Source: Geminocystis sp. NIES-3708 (GTDB lineage Bacteria > Cyanobacteriota > Cyanobacteriia > Cyanobacteriales > Cyanobacteriaceae). From it: 64,000 nucleotides of DNA. Made by a program: the position numbers and the translations under genes. Numbering within the stretch: the stretch's first letter is position 1; each line of letters opens with the position of its first letter. Under the pieces are notes generated by a model that worked only from the letters and a program-made list of their open reading frames with translations, did no database searches and was not told the origin of the DNA. Below are positions 10,627 to 64,000 of the stretch, one piece after another. The stretch is from NCBI RefSeq assembly GCF_001548095.1, contig NZ_AP014815.1, positions 1,301,656 through 1,365,655 of the forward strand. Direction: 5' to 3'.

Positions 10627-10632
10627 TTAAAT

Positions 10633-10662
10633 TAGCAATTGACAATTAACAATTAACAACTA
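10633..10662. repeat. AATTGACAATTAACAATTAAC-type intergenic repeat
   Basis: Two to three copies of a TTAACAAT-like unit directly after psbV. The same kind of repeat recurs at 52107-52146. It is low complexity, with no visible function. Confidence 0.5.
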
Positions 10663-10726
10663 ATTTTCAAGGATAGAGTAAGAAGGTTAAAATAGCGACT
10701 ATCTATTGTTAATTATCTTTACTTGT

Positions 10727-52101: not shown

Positions 52102-52106
52102 ATATT

Positions 52107-52146
52107 AATTAACAATTAATAATTAACAATTAATAATTAACAATTC
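52107..52146. repeat. AATTAACAATTAAT tandem repeat
   Basis: Nearly three head-to-tail copies of a 14-base TTAACAATTAATAA-like unit right after the aminotransferase gene. The same word appears after psbV. Typical degenerate intergenic repeat with no visible function. Confidence 0.6.
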
Positions 52147-53935: not shown

Positions 53936-54691
53936 TTATCGTTTTCTTTCGGGAAAATGATCTATTTCGGCAGTGCCATAAAAAATAAATTCCTTATCTT
54001 TAATCCTAGCACGATCAACTCTTAACCTAATACCATCAATAGAAAACTTATCCAAATCAAGTAAATTATTAACATGATCGAGAATCACTTTTCCTAACCT
54101 TTGCCCTTCACTATTTTCTTGATATTGAGGATTAGTAAATTGAATTTTTGTTCTACCTTGTAAATCTAAATTTGCTTTAATATCTATATTCGTAACTTCT
54201 TCAGTATCTCCTATTTTTATTTGAGATTTAATAGTTAAAGATTTATCTTCATTTACCGTCATTTGTGTTTGTTGAAAATGAAGAGATTTTCCTTCATATT
54301 CTAATCTTTGTAACTTTTCAATGATAAAAGGTGTATTAAAAGAAGTTGTCAAATCTTCTTCCGTAATAACAACTCTCATAGTGGCTTGAGTTGGTTGTCT
54401 CAGCTTTACTTTACCACTAAAAATTGCACTAAAGTCAATGGAAACAGCTTGAAGATATAACTCCATCGCTTCGAGTCGTAAGCCGTTGTACATCAACATA
54501 CCATTACCAATGAAGTCAAAACCATCAATACTTCCTTGTAAAAGTTTGGCTACAGGTTCAACTCTAAGATTCGCTTGTAAATTGCCTGTTTTTTTAAACA
54601 AGGCAGCTATGGCTGTGGTTATTGCTTTACTGACTATTTTATCGCCATTTTGTCCTGAAAAAGGTAAGCTACCAAACACAATTGCTGTCAT
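53936..54691 (-). CDS. DUF2993 (LmeA-like) lipid-binding protein
   Basis: 251 residues. VEPVAKLLQGSIDGFDFIGNG, then LEAMELYLQAVSIDFSAIFSGK and the strand-rich remainder are DUF2993 features; the family includes LmeA of mycobacteria, which binds phospholipid and supports lipoglycan maturation. No signal peptide is evident, unlike LmeA. The cyanobacterial function is unknown. Monocistronic; the flavin oxidase gene follows on the same strand downstream. Confidence 0.82.
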   Translation of the reverse strand: MTAIVFGSLPFSGQNGDKIVSKAITTAIAALFKKTGNLQANLRVEPVAKLLQGSIDGFDFIGNGMLMYNGLRLEAMELYLQAVSIDFSAIFSGKVKLRQPTQATMRVVITEEDLTTSFNTPFIIEKLQRLEYEGKSLHFQQTQMTVNEDKSLTIKSQIKIGDTEEVTNIDIKANLDLQGRTKIQFTNPQYQENSEGQRLGKVILDHVNNLLDLDKFSIDGIRLRVDRARIKDKEFIFYGTAEIDHFPERKR

Positions 54692-57624: not shown

Positions 57625-60600
57625 CTAAAAACGATGTTCAAACTCTATGATTCCTCGACTATCTTGCTCAAAATCACTTGAACCTCTTAAAATAGTTTTA
57701 TCGTTAAGACGATATTGAATGCTATAACTGGGTGCTTGTTCATTCGTTAGAATTTTAGTAATAGAAATAAAAAGATTGTTAGTTATATCTAAACCTAATT
57801 CTGCACCTAAAGCAAAACTAGATGTTCTATTTTCTGTATCAAATATTTGAGTAGGAAATAATCTTAATTGATCAAATCCAAATTCTTTTTGTAGTTGTCC
57901 TTGTACACTTCCTAAAAAAGCGGCACTAGCTAAATTTGCTAGTCCTAAATTGCCATCTCCTTCTTCAAAATTATTAAAAAATCCTCCTCCTAAAAGAGCG
58001 ATAATTTCTGTTTGATTTCTCTGAGGGCTACTGCTTAATTTAATATTATTTTCTAAGTTATTACTCCAACCTTTTACATTAGCTTTTATTTTAATTGTTT
58101 GAGCATTATTAAAAGATGAATTACTTATATCTCTGATTTCGTTGGGGTTGTAATTATCAGCTAACTGATAACGTAAAGTCTCTGTTACAGAACCTTCTAG
58201 TTGTATATCTAAATAAGGTTCAAAGCCATTATCCATGGTAAACTTAGCAATATTATTATAGTTTTTTGATAGTTTTAATTGACTGGTAAAAAGATTTAAA
58301 TTGCCTCCTTTTAAATTAATAATTCCTTCGGGCTTTAAATTATTTAATTGCCCATTTATATTTAAGTTACCTTCAGCTTGTAAATTTAATAATGGTGCTT
58401 GATTAATAATAATATTTTTTCCTAAAATTAATTCTAAATTATCGATTTTTGTATTGATAGCCAGTTCATTTTTATTAAAATTCTGATTATTATTTAAGTT
58501 TTCAGTTACTTTAATTTCCCCATCATATAATTTTATTTTACCACTAATTTTAGGAGCGAGTGCACTATTAGAAATATTAATTAAACCTTGTGCATTTCCC
58601 AGATATAAACTATTAATATCTAAGGTTAAATCATCAACACTAATATTTAAAGAGTCATCAGAAAAACGATTATTAATTAAAGGTAAACCTCCAACAATAT
58701 TGATATTACCACCACTAAAATTACCCGTTAGATTAGGAATATTTAACTGATCAAAATTAAAAAAGACTTGACCATTAATATTAGTAATAGGATTATCAGG
58801 AAAAATCTTACCACCAATAACTCCATTTTTAAAAGTTGCAATTCCTTGAGTATCAATATCTGTAATTTTGTTACCAAATTGAGAATATTTACCTTTAATA
58901 TCTAAATTAATATCTCCTTGACCTTGAAGCCAATTAAGTTTATTATTAGTGATAATATCTAATAAATTAAATCCATCTTGAGTTAAATTTAAACTGACAA
59001 TAAAGTCATTATTTTCTGGAATAATAGAATTAGGAAATAATTGAAAAGGTAAACTAGCAATTAAAGTTAATGGTTGTGTATTTTCTGTTAAATTACTTTT
59101 AGCTAAAAAATCTAACCTAGAGTTTCTAAATCCAAAACTAGCTTTTGTTTTATCAATTTGAGTGCCATTTATACTAGAATCTTGAATTTCAATATTGCCT
59201 TTTGCTAAAGGTTTTTCTTCACTGCCACTAATAGCGATACTAGCATTAATAATACCATCAATATTTAAAAGATTAGGTAAATTAACTATTTCTTTAAGCT
59301 GAGAAATCGAAAAATCAGTCAACATTACTTCACCAGAAATTCTCTCAGATTTAAAAGTCCCAGTCAAAGATAAAATGCTATTATTACTATTAATTTTGAC
59401 AGGTAATAAAGTTAATAAACCATTATCATAACTTCCAGTGGCTTGTAATGAATCTCCATGATATTTTCCCCATAACCAATTATTTCCCCGCAAATCAAAT
59501 TCGGCTTTTATGCCTTCTTGAAAAGATAAATTAATATCAACACTACCTGTTAAATTTCCTTGTAAAGTTTCTAAACTAGGCAAACTACCATGAAGACTAT
59601 TTGCTTCAGATTCCTTTAATTGCGCTTCAACTTTGCGGAAAAAAGTTAAAGTATCGAATAAAGAATTATTACTTCCTTCAATGGAAGCCAAAGGTTTTGG
59701 TTGACTATTAGTTATTGAAGGAGAAGGTAAAGTTTTTTCTCCGTTATTAGTTATTGAAGGAGAAGGTAAAGTTTTTTCCTCGTCATTAGTTATTGAAGGA
59801 GAAGATAAAGTTTTTTCCTCGTCATTAGTTATTGAAGAAGAAGGTAAAGTTTTTTCTTCGTCATTAGTTATTGAAGAAGAAGATAAAGTTTTTTCCTCGC
59901 CATTAGTTATTGAAGGAGAAGGTAAAGTTTTTTCCTCGTTATTAGTTATTGAAGGAGAAGACAAAGTTTTTTCTAAATATAAATCCTTTGCTTTGCCATA
60001 TTTACGAGGTTGCAATCCTAGAGATATATCTTCTAACTCAAAAATTTCCCAACTATTTAAAATATTTTGTATCTCACCCTCTTTGATTTCTACTTTCGCC
60101 TTGATTTGTGGGTTTTGTCTAAAAGGTTGTAACTCTCCAGCAAAAAGATATTCATTTTTTTGATGATTTAATTTTCCATTTTCTAATTTTATAATTCCTT
60201 TTTCCCCTGAAAGTTTAGTGGTAAGTTTATCTCCTTGTAAATGGTTGATGCTTGGTTTGTCTATAATGACATTTCCCGTTGTTAATTCATAATTATTGAG
60301 ATTAACATTGACATCTCCTGAAAGATTACCACCAATTTTTTTTACATCAGTGGGAAGATGAGTTAACCACGTTTTGGTAATTGTTTCTAAAGGAATATTG
60401 AAGACATTGATGGCTAAAGTGTCATCATTTTTTATTGCTTTAACTTGAGTCTCTTTAATTTGTAAGTTAATTAATTGCGGTTGGTTTTGATTATCGAATT
60501 GTAAAGAAATTTTCTCCTCTGAATTTTCAGAATCGAGTTGTAAGTTTAAACCTTCGTTAATGCCAAAAGTTATATCTCCTTTTAAAGAAGAAAAAGCAAG

Positions 60601-63069
60601 ATTAGCCATTTGAAAATTATTAAGGGTAACATTTCCTTTTAACTGCGGTTGAGATATATTCCCTTGCAAACCTCCTTGAAAGTCAACTTTTCCCTGATAG
60701 TTTAGTAAATCGAAAGAAGAAGGTAACGATAAATTATTTAAGTCAATTCCTGTTGCGAGAATATCTAAATCAATATTTTTAACTGTCTGTGTTGGAATAT
60801 CAACATCAATAATTCCTTTTGCTTCAATACCCTTACTAACTGCTTGATTTAACTTTAAATTTTCACCATTCCAAGAAAAATTTGCTGAAATTGGTTGATT
60901 AATAAGACTAATTCCTTGACTAAAAACTAAGTCGCCATCGAGATTAATTTTTTCTGCCGTGAGATGATTAATATTTCCTCTTGCTGTTAAATTACCACTA
61001 ACATCTCCCCGTAAATTCTTTCCCATACCATTAAGGGCAAAATTTACAGCATTTGTTTCGGCAATAAAGTTATCTTTTACCAATGTAAAGTTGTCAATAT
61101 TTATTCTTCCCTCTGATAAATCTAATTTTCCTTTTCCTTGAATTTCAATGTTGTTATTATTCGCTAAATTACCTTTTACTTCTAAATTAGCATTAACTTT
61201 TTTTTGGTGCATTGTCAAAAAAGTCGAGTTAATAGAAGGTAATAGAGAAAAAAGAAAATTTTCAGTATTTATTAATGTTTCCCAGTTACCTTGACTAACT
61301 TTCGTATTAATAAAGTTAACTTTTCCTCCACCAAAATTAATATTAAAATCTCCGAATAACTCAATATTATTTACGTTAATCTGCTGATTTTTCCCTGATA
61401 TTTGAAACTTTCCATTTAATAATGAATCATTACAAGCAAATTTTTCGCAATCGAGATTTGATAACTGTCTTAAATTGACTTTTGCTAGTGCAACTTCTCC
61501 TTTCCAACTATCACGATTAATTTCTAAATTCTTAACGACGGCTTTACCTCCTTGCGGCAATTCTACTGTAGAAAAACCTGTTAATTTACCTTGATTAAAA
61601 TTCTTCCAATTTCCTGATAAATTATATTTCCCTGAAATTAAACCAATATTAATAGGTAATTGTTGTTGATAAATAGAGAGTAAGTTTTTCCCCTGAATAT
61701 TTTTTCCGACAAAAAGAATATTAAAACTATCATTTTCTTTTCCTAATAAATTCACATTTCCTGTTGCCGTCACTTCTCCGCCGATAGTTGGTAATAATTT
61801 CAGATTATTAATACTTAATTGATGGTTATAAATTTCTATATTGCTAGTAATATTCTCAAAACTAATTTTATCAACTTCTGCTTTTCCTACATTAACTATA
61901 TTTGCCTGAATTTTAGGGTTATAAATATCTCCAGTAATATTAATTTTTCCTTTGATTTTTCCTTTGATTTCTAAATTATTTTTATCTAACTTCAAAGAAG
62001 AAAGTATACTATTTATCTCAAAGGGATGAGAAGTATTCGCTTGAATATTTAGCTGTTGATTATTAGTAGTAATAAATCCATTGACTTGAGTATTAATTAA
62101 ACCTAAATTAGTATTAATATTATCCAAATTTATTTTTTCATTATCAAAAGTAACTTTTCCTTTACTTTTAGTTAATGGATTAGGCAAATTGAGGAGATTA
62201 AAATTAACACTATCAAAGTTAATATCTCCTTTAATATCCGTTAAAACATTTTGAGAAAATTGTAAATCAATATTTCCTGTAACTTTTCCAGAATTAGCAT
62301 TTATAGGAAGAATAATCAAATTATTAATGGTATTTGTCGCTAAATCCTCACCATTGATATTGAATAACCACTGACTTTCTGGAATTTTATATAAACCATT
62401 AACTTTAATATTTCCTCCTTGAACAAAATTTCCTTTAACTTCCAGTAAAGATTGATTTTCTTCAATAATAATATTAGCATCAGAAATTTTTAACTGAGTA
62501 ACTGAAGCTGATAAATCTTGTAAATTATTATTTTTAACTATTAAATTACTATTTTTGGCATGAATACTATTAACATTAAAATTCCAGAATAATATTTTAT
62601 TTGTCTCATTATTTAATGATAAATTAATCCAACTATTATCTTTATTTTGTTGTAAATATATACTACTATCAATAAAAGTAATACCAAAATCAATATTTTT
62701 TGTAAATAACTGTAAAGGATTAAAATTAATTTCTATCGCTTCAGCAATGGCAGAATCATTTTCATTTTTAGTAGTATCAATTTGGGTTTTCCCTAATCTA
62801 ATTTTCGTCAAAGAAACTGCTTCTATCTTACCCAATTTTACAGGGCGAGAAATGTAATTACTAACAGGTTTTTCCATTAAAGGAATTAGCTTTTGAGTTA
62901 AAAAAAACCAACCATAACTTAACCCCCCTCCCAAGAATAATAAGGTGAGATAAATAAACCATCGCCAGAAACTATATTTTTTTTCTAACTCTAGAGATTG
63001 TTTTTCAATATCCTCTGGATTTTGTGAAAAAGAGAAATTAGAAGTATCAACCATATTACACACCGACAT
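57625..63069 (-). CDS. TamB-like inner membrane/periplasmic translocation protein (DUF490)
   Basis: 1,814 residues (1,809 if the second Met is used). A short cytoplasmic start, one membrane helix (about 34-57), then a very long series of beta-rich repeats with Asn/Ile/Leu-rich strands typical of the TamB/AsmA group, and the C-terminal DUF490 domain (EIIALLGGGFFNNF, then FGFDQLRLFPTQIF). TamB-type proteins bridge the periplasm and move phospholipid or help outer-membrane protein assembly. Around residues 1030-1125 a low-complexity linker contains seven near-identical 13-residue units (EKTLxSxSITNxE), coded by a 39-bp tandem repeat. It is divergent from the iron-uptake porin gene. Confidence 0.9.
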   Translation of the reverse strand: MSVCNMVDTSNFSFSQNPEDIEKQSLELEKKYSFWRWFIYLTLLFLGGGLSYGWFFLTQKLIPLMEKPVSNYISRPVKLGKIEAVSLTKIRLGKTQIDTTKNENDSAIAEAIEINFNPLQLFTKNIDFGITFIDSSIYLQQNKDNSWINLSLNNETNKILFWNFNVNSIHAKNSNLIVKNNNLQDLSASVTQLKISDANIIIEENQSLLEVKGNFVQGGNIKVNGLYKIPESQWLFNINGEDLATNTINNLIILPINANSGKVTGNIDLQFSQNVLTDIKGDINFDSVNFNLLNLPNPLTKSKGKVTFDNEKINLDNINTNLGLINTQVNGFITTNNQQLNIQANTSHPFEINSILSSLKLDKNNLEIKGKIKGKINITGDIYNPKIQANIVNVGKAEVDKISFENITSNIEIYNHQLSINNLKLLPTIGGEVTATGNVNLLGKENDSFNILFVGKNIQGKNLLSIYQQQLPINIGLISGKYNLSGNWKNFNQGKLTGFSTVELPQGGKAVVKNLEINRDSWKGEVALAKVNLRQLSNLDCEKFACNDSLLNGKFQISGKNQQINVNNIELFGDFNINFGGGKVNFINTKVSQGNWETLINTENFLFSLLPSINSTFLTMHQKKVNANLEVKGNLANNNNIEIQGKGKLDLSEGRINIDNFTLVKDNFIAETNAVNFALNGMGKNLRGDVSGNLTARGNINHLTAEKINLDGDLVFSQGISLINQPISANFSWNGENLKLNQAVSKGIEAKGIIDVDIPTQTVKNIDLDILATGIDLNNLSLPSSFDLLNYQGKVDFQGGLQGNISQPQLKGNVTLNNFQMANLAFSSLKGDITFGINEGLNLQLDSENSEEKISLQFDNQNQPQLINLQIKETQVKAIKNDDTLAINVFNIPLETITKTWLTHLPTDVKKIGGNLSGDVNVNLNNYELTTGNVIIDKPSINHLQGDKLTTKLSGEKGIIKLENGKLNHQKNEYLFAGELQPFRQNPQIKAKVEIKEGEIQNILNSWEIFELEDISLGLQPRKYGKAKDLYLEKTLSSPSITNNEEKTLPSPSITNGEEKTLSSSSITNDEEKTLPSSSITNDEEKTLSSPSITNDEEKTLPSPSITNNGEKTLPSPSITNSQPKPLASIEGSNNSLFDTLTFFRKVEAQLKESEANSLHGSLPSLETLQGNLTGSVDINLSFQEGIKAEFDLRGNNWLWGKYHGDSLQATGSYDNGLLTLLPVKINSNNSILSLTGTFKSERISGEVMLTDFSISQLKEIVNLPNLLNIDGIINASIAISGSEEKPLAKGNIEIQDSSINGTQIDKTKASFGFRNSRLDFLAKSNLTENTQPLTLIASLPFQLFPNSIIPENNDFIVSLNLTQDGFNLLDIITNNKLNWLQGQGDINLDIKGKYSQFGNKITDIDTQGIATFKNGVIGGKIFPDNPITNINGQVFFNFDQLNIPNLTGNFSGGNINIVGGLPLINNRFSDDSLNISVDDLTLDINSLYLGNAQGLINISNSALAPKISGKIKLYDGEIKVTENLNNNQNFNKNELAINTKIDNLELILGKNIIINQAPLLNLQAEGNLNINGQLNNLKPEGIINLKGGNLNLFTSQLKLSKNYNNIAKFTMDNGFEPYLDIQLEGSVTETLRYQLADNYNPNEIRDISNSSFNNAQTIKIKANVKGWSNNLENNIKLSSSPQRNQTEIIALLGGGFFNNFEEGDGNLGLANLASAAFLGSVQGQLQKEFGFDQLRLFPTQIFDTENRTSSFALGAELGLDITNNLFISITKILTNEQAPSYSIQYRLNDKTILRGSSDFEQDSRGIIEFEHRF
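59708..59974 (-). repeat. 39-bp tandem repeat inside the TamB-like gene
   Basis: Six full units plus most of a seventh start at 59708, 59747, 59786, 59825, 59864, 59903 and 59942. The period of 39 keeps the reading frame and encodes EKTLxSxSITNxE. Units differ by only a few bases (mainly GG/AA and CC/TC), so the array looks recent and probably varies in copy number. Confidence 0.95.
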
Positions 63070-63260: not shown

Positions 63261-64000
63261 ATGTTACTATTTTTAGGCAAATGTTCACCGATGACTTCTT
63301 TAACGGTTTTAATATCGACTTTGTTAGCCTCCTCTGTAGGAGCATTAGAAATACCGACAGAAACGGATTTGTTAGAGTCTAAAAACTCTTTTGGACAAGT
63401 AACTTCTGTTTCTCAACTAAGGGATGTATCCCCTAATGATTGGGCATTTGAAGCCTTAAGAAGCCTTGTAGAACGCTATGGATGTATTGTAGGTTATCCT
63501 GATCGAACATTCAGAGGTAATCGTGCTTTAAGTCGTTATGAATTTGCGGCTGGTTTAAATGCTTGTATGCAACAAATAGAACGATTAATTGCTTCTAGTG
63601 AATCAATTTTAAAAGAAGATATTGAGAAACTTAAGCGATTAATGGTAGAATTTGAAACGGAATTAGCAACACTCGGGGCAAGGGTTGATAACTTAGAAGG
63701 GCGAGTAGCCTTTTTAGAAGATCATCAGTTCTCTACCACCACAAAACTTAGCGGTGAAGTAATTATGAGTTTAGCTAGTGCATTTAACTCCGATACTTCT
63801 AGTTATGATGGTTTAACAAAAAGAGCAAATCCTGTCAATGAAAATCAAGCCGTATTTAGTTACCGTAGTCGTTTTAATTTTGATACCAGTTTTACAGGTA
63901 AAGATAGATTAAGAGTGCGGATTCAAGCAGGAAATATTAGGGCTTTTGATGGTAATACGGATATGACACGATTAAGCTATGATACCAACACAGACAATGA
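63261..64000 (+). CDS. Iron-uptake porin (SLH + OprB-type), 3' partial
   Basis: Starts at ATG 63261 and runs open to the window edge (about 246 residues visible). N-terminal signal peptide (TSLTVLISTLLASSVGA), an SLH domain (VSQLRDVSPNDWAFEALRSLVER...GYPDRTFRGNRALSRYEFA), a short coiled coil (about 100-150, LKEDIEKLKRLMVEFETEL), then the first strands of the OprB-like barrel (TTKLSGEVIMS). This layout is that of the major cyanobacterial outer-membrane porins, several of which take up inorganic iron. The SLH domain anchors to peptidoglycan-linked polysaccharide. Ion specificity is inferred from family. Divergent from the TamB-like gene (191 bp between). Confidence 0.92.
   Translation, partial: MLLFLGKCSPMTSLTVLISTLLASSVGALEIPTETDLLESKNSFGQVTSVSQLRDVSPNDWAFEALRSLVERYGCIVGYPDRTFRGNRALSRYEFAAGLNACMQQIERLIASSESILKEDIEKLKRLMVEFETELATLGARVDNLEGRVAFLEDHQFSTTTKLSGEVIMSLASAFNSDTSSYDGLTKRANPVNENQAVFSYRSRFNFDTSFTGKDRLRVRIQAGNIRAFDGNTDMTRLSYDTNTDN

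Follow-up and report, generated by a model that had tools for sequence, protein, structure and literature searches.

A probable coding minisatellite in the linker of a TamB-like protein of Geminocystis sp. NIES-3708

The window analysed here, a stretch of 64,000 nucleotides from Geminocystis sp. NIES-3708, carries on its minus strand a tamB-like gene encoding 1814 aa (57625..63069), which was assigned from the open reading frame list and from a match above cut-off to the Pfam TamB profile (PF04357). The matched domain occupies C-terminal residues 1447-1814 (57628..58731, minus strand) and scores 161.6 bits against a cut-off of 22.4, and 148.7 bits when the search is run across the whole genome. 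By this curated cut-off the protein belongs to the TamB family. The NCBIfam model for the autotransporter assembly protein TamB (NF047952) gave 22.9 bits, short of its cut-off of 825. By eye, a hydrophobic segment starts near the N-terminus, from about residue 34. TamB relatives are periplasmic proteins with an inner-membrane anchor, and by analogy with E. coli TamB and plant TIC236, for which this is established, the NIES-3708 protein would span the periplasm. A sequence search of the PDB returned no relative of the C-terminal 693 aa at E 1 or of the whole protein at E 0.01. The genome assembly, of 4,042,078 bases in 6 contigs (main contig 3,883,409 bases), carries a second TamB-family gene at another locus, as revealed by the genome-wide profile search. 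The published NIES-3708 genome consists of a chromosome and five plasmids (PMC4424290).

The tamB-like gene is divergent from a porin gene (63261-63998) with SLH and OprB domains, and a gap of 191 bases separates the two. Judged by positions, the same arrangement is found in a relative (locus L056), where the porin is named from sequence likeness only. On the other side, the third open reading frame beyond tamB (window 53936-54691) encodes an LmeA-like phospholipid-binding domain (Pfam PF11209), which is of possible interest near the gene of a lipid bridge.

Within the tamB-like gene, TRF, a core search and translation of the units delimited a 39-bp tandem array of 6.8 copies (59707..59973, minus strand), which reads as seven units starting with EK. 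TRF reported a period of 39 with 92% matches, no indels and a score of 450, by far the highest among the 17 TRF rows of the window. A 33-base core occurs 7 times at an exact spacing of 39 bp with 0-2 mismatches, and the same core had 0 occurrences in 100 dinucleotide shuffles. The minus-strand translation runs in frame as EKTL[SP]S[SP]SITN[NGD][EG]; six units of 13 aa are complete and the seventh runs on as ...SITNSQ. The sequence-only reading had described nearly seven 39-bp units, with the frame kept, in a TamB gene, and the TRF copy number, the unit identity and the PF04357 match bear this out. With its high-identity tandem units in frame, the array has the makeup of a coding minisatellite and is a candidate VNTR. 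It is located at a single genomic site, the next best match in the genome having E 0.04 over 26 bases (40 of the 76 first-look candidates were scored in this search). Among the papers listed by searches of an open-licence library, none described the repeat. Judged by eye, the A6 runs of the units are out of phase for a classical -1 slippery site.

The array fills most of a linker that extends over residues 1032-1124 (93 aa; 59698..59976, minus strand), as delimited by the family alignment and script anchors. The linker contains no aromatic residue, is rich in S, T, E, P, and N, and has a net charge of -8; it is probably disordered. It is preceded by a conserved edge, QPRKYGKAKDLY (residues 1020-1031; 59977..60012, minus strand), and P.YG.A.DL-like stretches are seen by eye at this edge in many order-level relatives. 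The conserved edge following the linker, SLFDTLTFFRKVEAQLKESEAN (residues 1136-1157; 59599..59664, minus strand), is likely a helix, and many order-level relatives show, by eye, an SLL.QLRRFSEI.ALL.QQ-like stretch at its position. A helix at residues 1136-1157 also appears in an AlphaFold2 model of residues 760-1400, which was built from only three sequences and is of very low confidence (pLDDT 28).

We then compared the joint across the genus, with one genome per species, so that the variation described is variation between species. All five genus genomes, NIES-3708 among them, carry the TamB-like gene, and in every one this same joint holds a tandem array whose repeat unit and copy number are particular to that genome. 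NIES-3708 (G000) has 6.8 copies of 39 bp and a linker of 93 aa, G004 has 10.2 copies of 42 bp (147 aa), G002 has 13.8 copies of 48 bp (230 aa), and G001 has 35.6 copies of 45 bp (537 aa). In G003, the 45-bp array is found in two pieces of 2.1 and 5.2 copies, both of which run into contig ends and are presumed to adjoin, giving a linker of at least 121 aa. Among unbroken arrays, copy number thus varies about fivefold between species (6.8 to 35.6), and the four unbroken linkers range from 93 to 537 aa. Aromatic residues number 0-6 in the linkers of the genus, and serine reaches 44%. The longest array includes an exact 334-bp repeat, a block copy of about seven units. In the metagenome assembly G004 (G004:C66, L056/L026), one in-frame stop lies in the C-terminal part of tamB, reflecting either a sequencing error or a broken gene. 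The opposite strand of the arrays also has open frames (328 aa in one relative; a weak self-match), presumably because a stop-free repeat whose length is divisible by three leaves them open.

The units were cut at EK codons and compared within and between species, both pieces from G003 being treated as a single species. For all 67 complete units, the nearest neighbour is a unit of the same species. Mean unit identity is 0.85-0.95 within species and 0.40-0.78 between species. The units fall into two clades, one comprising G000, G003, and G004 and the other G001 and G002; between-species identity is 0.64-0.78 inside a clade and 0.40-0.45, at the nucleotide level, across clades. In a test with 500 codon shuffles, consensus units are alike inside clades, only 0-1 shuffles scoring as high as the real units. 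Across clades, 5-57 shuffles do so and homology of the units is not demonstrable; the arrays would therefore either go back to a single inherited array that every line rewrote, or have started twice at the same joint. These results support an array that is young or kept homogeneous. The recent expansion proposed from the sequence of this one locus holds at the level of species, and the genus genomes showed neither a fixed copy number nor units equally diverged in all relatives.

To gauge constraint, we calculated pN/pS from uncorrected distances. The ratio within arrays is 0.83 in NIES-3708 and 1.52, 0.72, and 0.78 in three other species; in G003, pS is 0 and pN 0.11, leaving the ratio undefined, with too few sites to read. 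The flanks gave about 0.25-0.44 in six pairs of four genus genomes, a comparison of genome with genome that differs in kind from the comparison of copy with copy in the arrays. The linker is clearly the looser part relative to its flanks, and amino-acid change within the arrays is about as free as silent change. Units from all five species begin with EK and share a serine/proline stretch. Some constraint may lie behind this, although the EK start comes partly from the choice of cut.

In the family, the C-terminal TamB part was found in 13 of 15 genomes, NIES-3708 included; no match came from G006, which is 63% complete, or from G011, which is 99% complete and whose miss is unexplained. The anchor-to-anchor distance is 84-585 aa in the ten family genomes read through both sides. 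In three further genomes (G003, G007, and G010) a contig ends within the linker or close to it, and in G007 a 132-bp unit of 1.8 copies lies at this point. Elsewhere in the family, six linkers from other genera are complete; these are polar, with lengths of 35-225 aa. Five of them lack an array, and G005 has 2.5 copies of a 24-bp unit. When linker and remainder were measured separately in nine family genomes, the linker was 35-537 aa and the remainder 1721-1741 aa, some of these remainder counts including open frame ahead of the start codon; G004 was left out of this comparison because the stop cuts its frame. Nearly all length variation of the TamB-like gene in these nine genomes is located in the linker.

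Outside the family, the joint is short. In the order survey, 118 of 120 genomes matched; seven of the 120 belong to the family, and 112 of the 113 others matched. We examined 84 of these 112 out-of-family genomes at one locus each, picked for strong matches reaching near the joint. An upstream anchor that stopped early left five rows (L063, L068, L105, L122, and L124) with extrapolated distances of 7-28, and these rows were excluded. In the remaining 79 genomes, the anchor distance is 44-111 aa with a median of 47, and 77 of the 79 have at most 62 aa. TRF found no array of score 40 or more overlapping the joint in the 84 out-of-family loci. By eye, many order-level relatives share the layout of P.YG.A.DL, a short turn, the SLL.QLRRFSEI.ALL.QQ-like stretch, and LP.L..L.G, which places the insertion of the family in the turn just ahead of the probable conserved helix. 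The linker is lineage-restricted, being present in the family and absent from the sampled rest of the order.

TRF detected repeats of another kind in 17 of the 84 out-of-family TamB loci, from 12 genera (L064, L066, L067, L072, L078, L101, L102, L105, L106, L109, L111, L112, L113, L114, L117, L119, and L125). They are in-frame tandem duplications that all end before the upstream anchor; the units measure 153-270 bp (51-90 aa), and every one has a length divisible by three. By eye the units resemble beta-groove modules, and they reach up to 5.5 copies, the copy numbers being lower bounds because several duplications run off the end of the stretch. Such module duplication is possibly a rigid route to a longer bridge. 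In the genome of NIES-3708, the second TamB-family gene contains an in-frame 8-bp array of 7.1 copies (L141 5202-5258), which encodes the charged stretch TGRRGDGETRRQEDRQTGR. Tandem runs of the 7-bp unit AATTAAC are located at window 10630-10663 and 52106-52145, and the two-unit pattern, allowing up to one mismatch, has 7 matches in the window against 0.35 expected. Heptamer repeats are known from cyanobacteria, and the AATTAAC runs resemble these.

We consider it probable that the array is a coding minisatellite in a loop, specific to this lineage, of a TamB-like bridge across the envelope, and that this loop serves as a flexible passive tether. A polar linker would have been acquired in the Geminocystis family where two parts of the protein meet at a conserved joint, and in the genus Geminocystis a 39-48-bp unit within the linker would then have begun tandem copying. 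Inside each species, copies have come and gone and been homogenised, presumably through replication slippage or recombination between units, which would explain why unit and copy number differ from species to species. The loop itself may loop out or passively tether two parts of the groove, so that its length could drift at little cost while the frame is kept. Largely neutral slack appears to be the best reading of the linker, neutrality being judged here from distances between copies rather than from populations.

The sequence-only reading had suggested instead that linker length tunes the reach of the protein. In its adaptive form, copy number would set how far the bridge stretches or bends, and lineages or strains would be fitted to the width of their envelope. 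The large changes are indeed confined to the linker, with the rest of the protein almost constant in the nine family genomes, and copy number varies about fivefold across species. However, the sampled relatives in the order manage without the linker, and the unit sequence is nearly unconstrained. By our own estimate of about 0.36 nm per residue, an extended linker of 537 aa would greatly exceed the span of the periplasm. Duplication of the beta-module-like units provides a stiffer route in relatives, which would be a better candidate for reach than the Geminocystis loop. Linkers of 93-537 aa, almost unconstrained in sequence and placed at a joint that is short outside the family, appear to fit slack better than a ruler, and the data lend no support to tuned reach. 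We regard adaptive tuning as unlikely. A related proposal, in which the array is an evolvable length dial, with recombination varying tether length in a population and selection on envelope width or flexibility sorting the variants, is in our judgement decidedly doubtful. If it were true, cyanobacterial TamB would have two quick routes to length, a soft one through the array and a rigid one through module duplication.

The linker could also offer multiple binding sites, to peptidoglycan or to some other protein of the envelope, for instance, with selection acting on the repeated EK..S motif. An EK-started, S/P-rich unit does recur across the five genus genomes, but inside the arrays amino-acid changes are roughly as common as silent ones, units show little likeness from one clade to the other (nucleotide identity 0.40-0.45), and other genera of the family have different-looking linkers, five of the six complete ones without an array. 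We therefore consider a binding array improbable. A dispersed genomic repeat element that landed in frame by chance is very hard to credit. The genome does have other short tandem repeats, including the AATTAAC runs and the 8-bp array of the second TamB gene, but the 39-bp unit has no second copy in the genome, and the arrays of the species differ and yet lie at the same joint. Since the array is present at one genomic site only, an origin from a dispersed repeat was rejected. It is equally hard to believe that the copy number is an assembly artefact, with the array collapsed or expanded. The G003 assembly does break inside the array at two contig ends, and the paper on NIES-3709, possibly our G002, describes MiSeq reads with gaps closed in silico. 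Against this, arrays are present in five separate assemblies. NIES-3708 was sequenced from GS FLX+ shotgun and 800-bp MiSeq paired-end libraries (PMC4424290). Given the read length of FLX+, these should span the 267 bp of the array.

The event is neat but ordinary in kind; the protein in which it occurred is unusual. The family bears on the question of how bridge-like lipid transfer proteins come to match the gap they span: it provides a natural series of one protein with about 1720-1740 aa outside the linker and a linker of 35 to 537 aa, the arrays of the genus being copied and homogenised species by species. Should the linker prove to be slack lying in line with the bridge, the bridge must tolerate a long flexible interruption at its middle, which would limit models of an unbroken groove. 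If the linker matters, copy number is a ready-made dial for testing reach.

The protein resembles the TamB/TIC236 bridges (PF04357) in its C-terminal TamB domain, which lies far above the cut-off, and differs from them at the joint, where the measured order-level relatives have no repeat array and no insert this large. In the available part of the report on E. coli TamB, cryo-EM shows a continuous U-shaped hydrophobic core (PMC12800296). In plastids, the TamB homologue TIC236 reaches across the intermembrane space to contact TOC75 (PMC11377289). Through this homology cyanobacterial TamB is of wider interest, the likeness to TIC236 being drawn from its description only. Among repeating beta groove (RBG) proteins, the accessible text of PMC7613979 attributes all length variation of the Tweek/Csf1 bridges to disordered loops and the enlargement of VPS13C/D to internal duplication. 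Cyanobacterial TamB likewise shows both a loop and duplicated units, but the duplications in RBG proteins, as far as that text describes them, are old and of whole domains, whereas the Geminocystis loop is a near-identical array homogenised within species. As that text presents them, the disordered loops of the eukaryotic Tweek/Csf1 bridges would be the nearest known pattern, if the Geminocystis loop is disordered as its composition suggests.

Short in-frame tandem units whose copy number differs among genomes are typical of bacterial coding minisatellites and VNTRs. The TamB array is likewise short, in frame, and variable in copy number, the variation here being seen between species. Periscope Proteins, in the part of PMC9704523 available, have very similar tandem repeat coding sequences whose variation is attributed to homologous recombination. 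The TamB array shares with them repeats of very high identity at the DNA level and a variable length, which here varies between species. Periscope Proteins, as portrayed in that part, are cell-surface rods; the TamB units, in contrast, are 13-16 aa long and probably unfolded, in a protein expected to be periplasmic.
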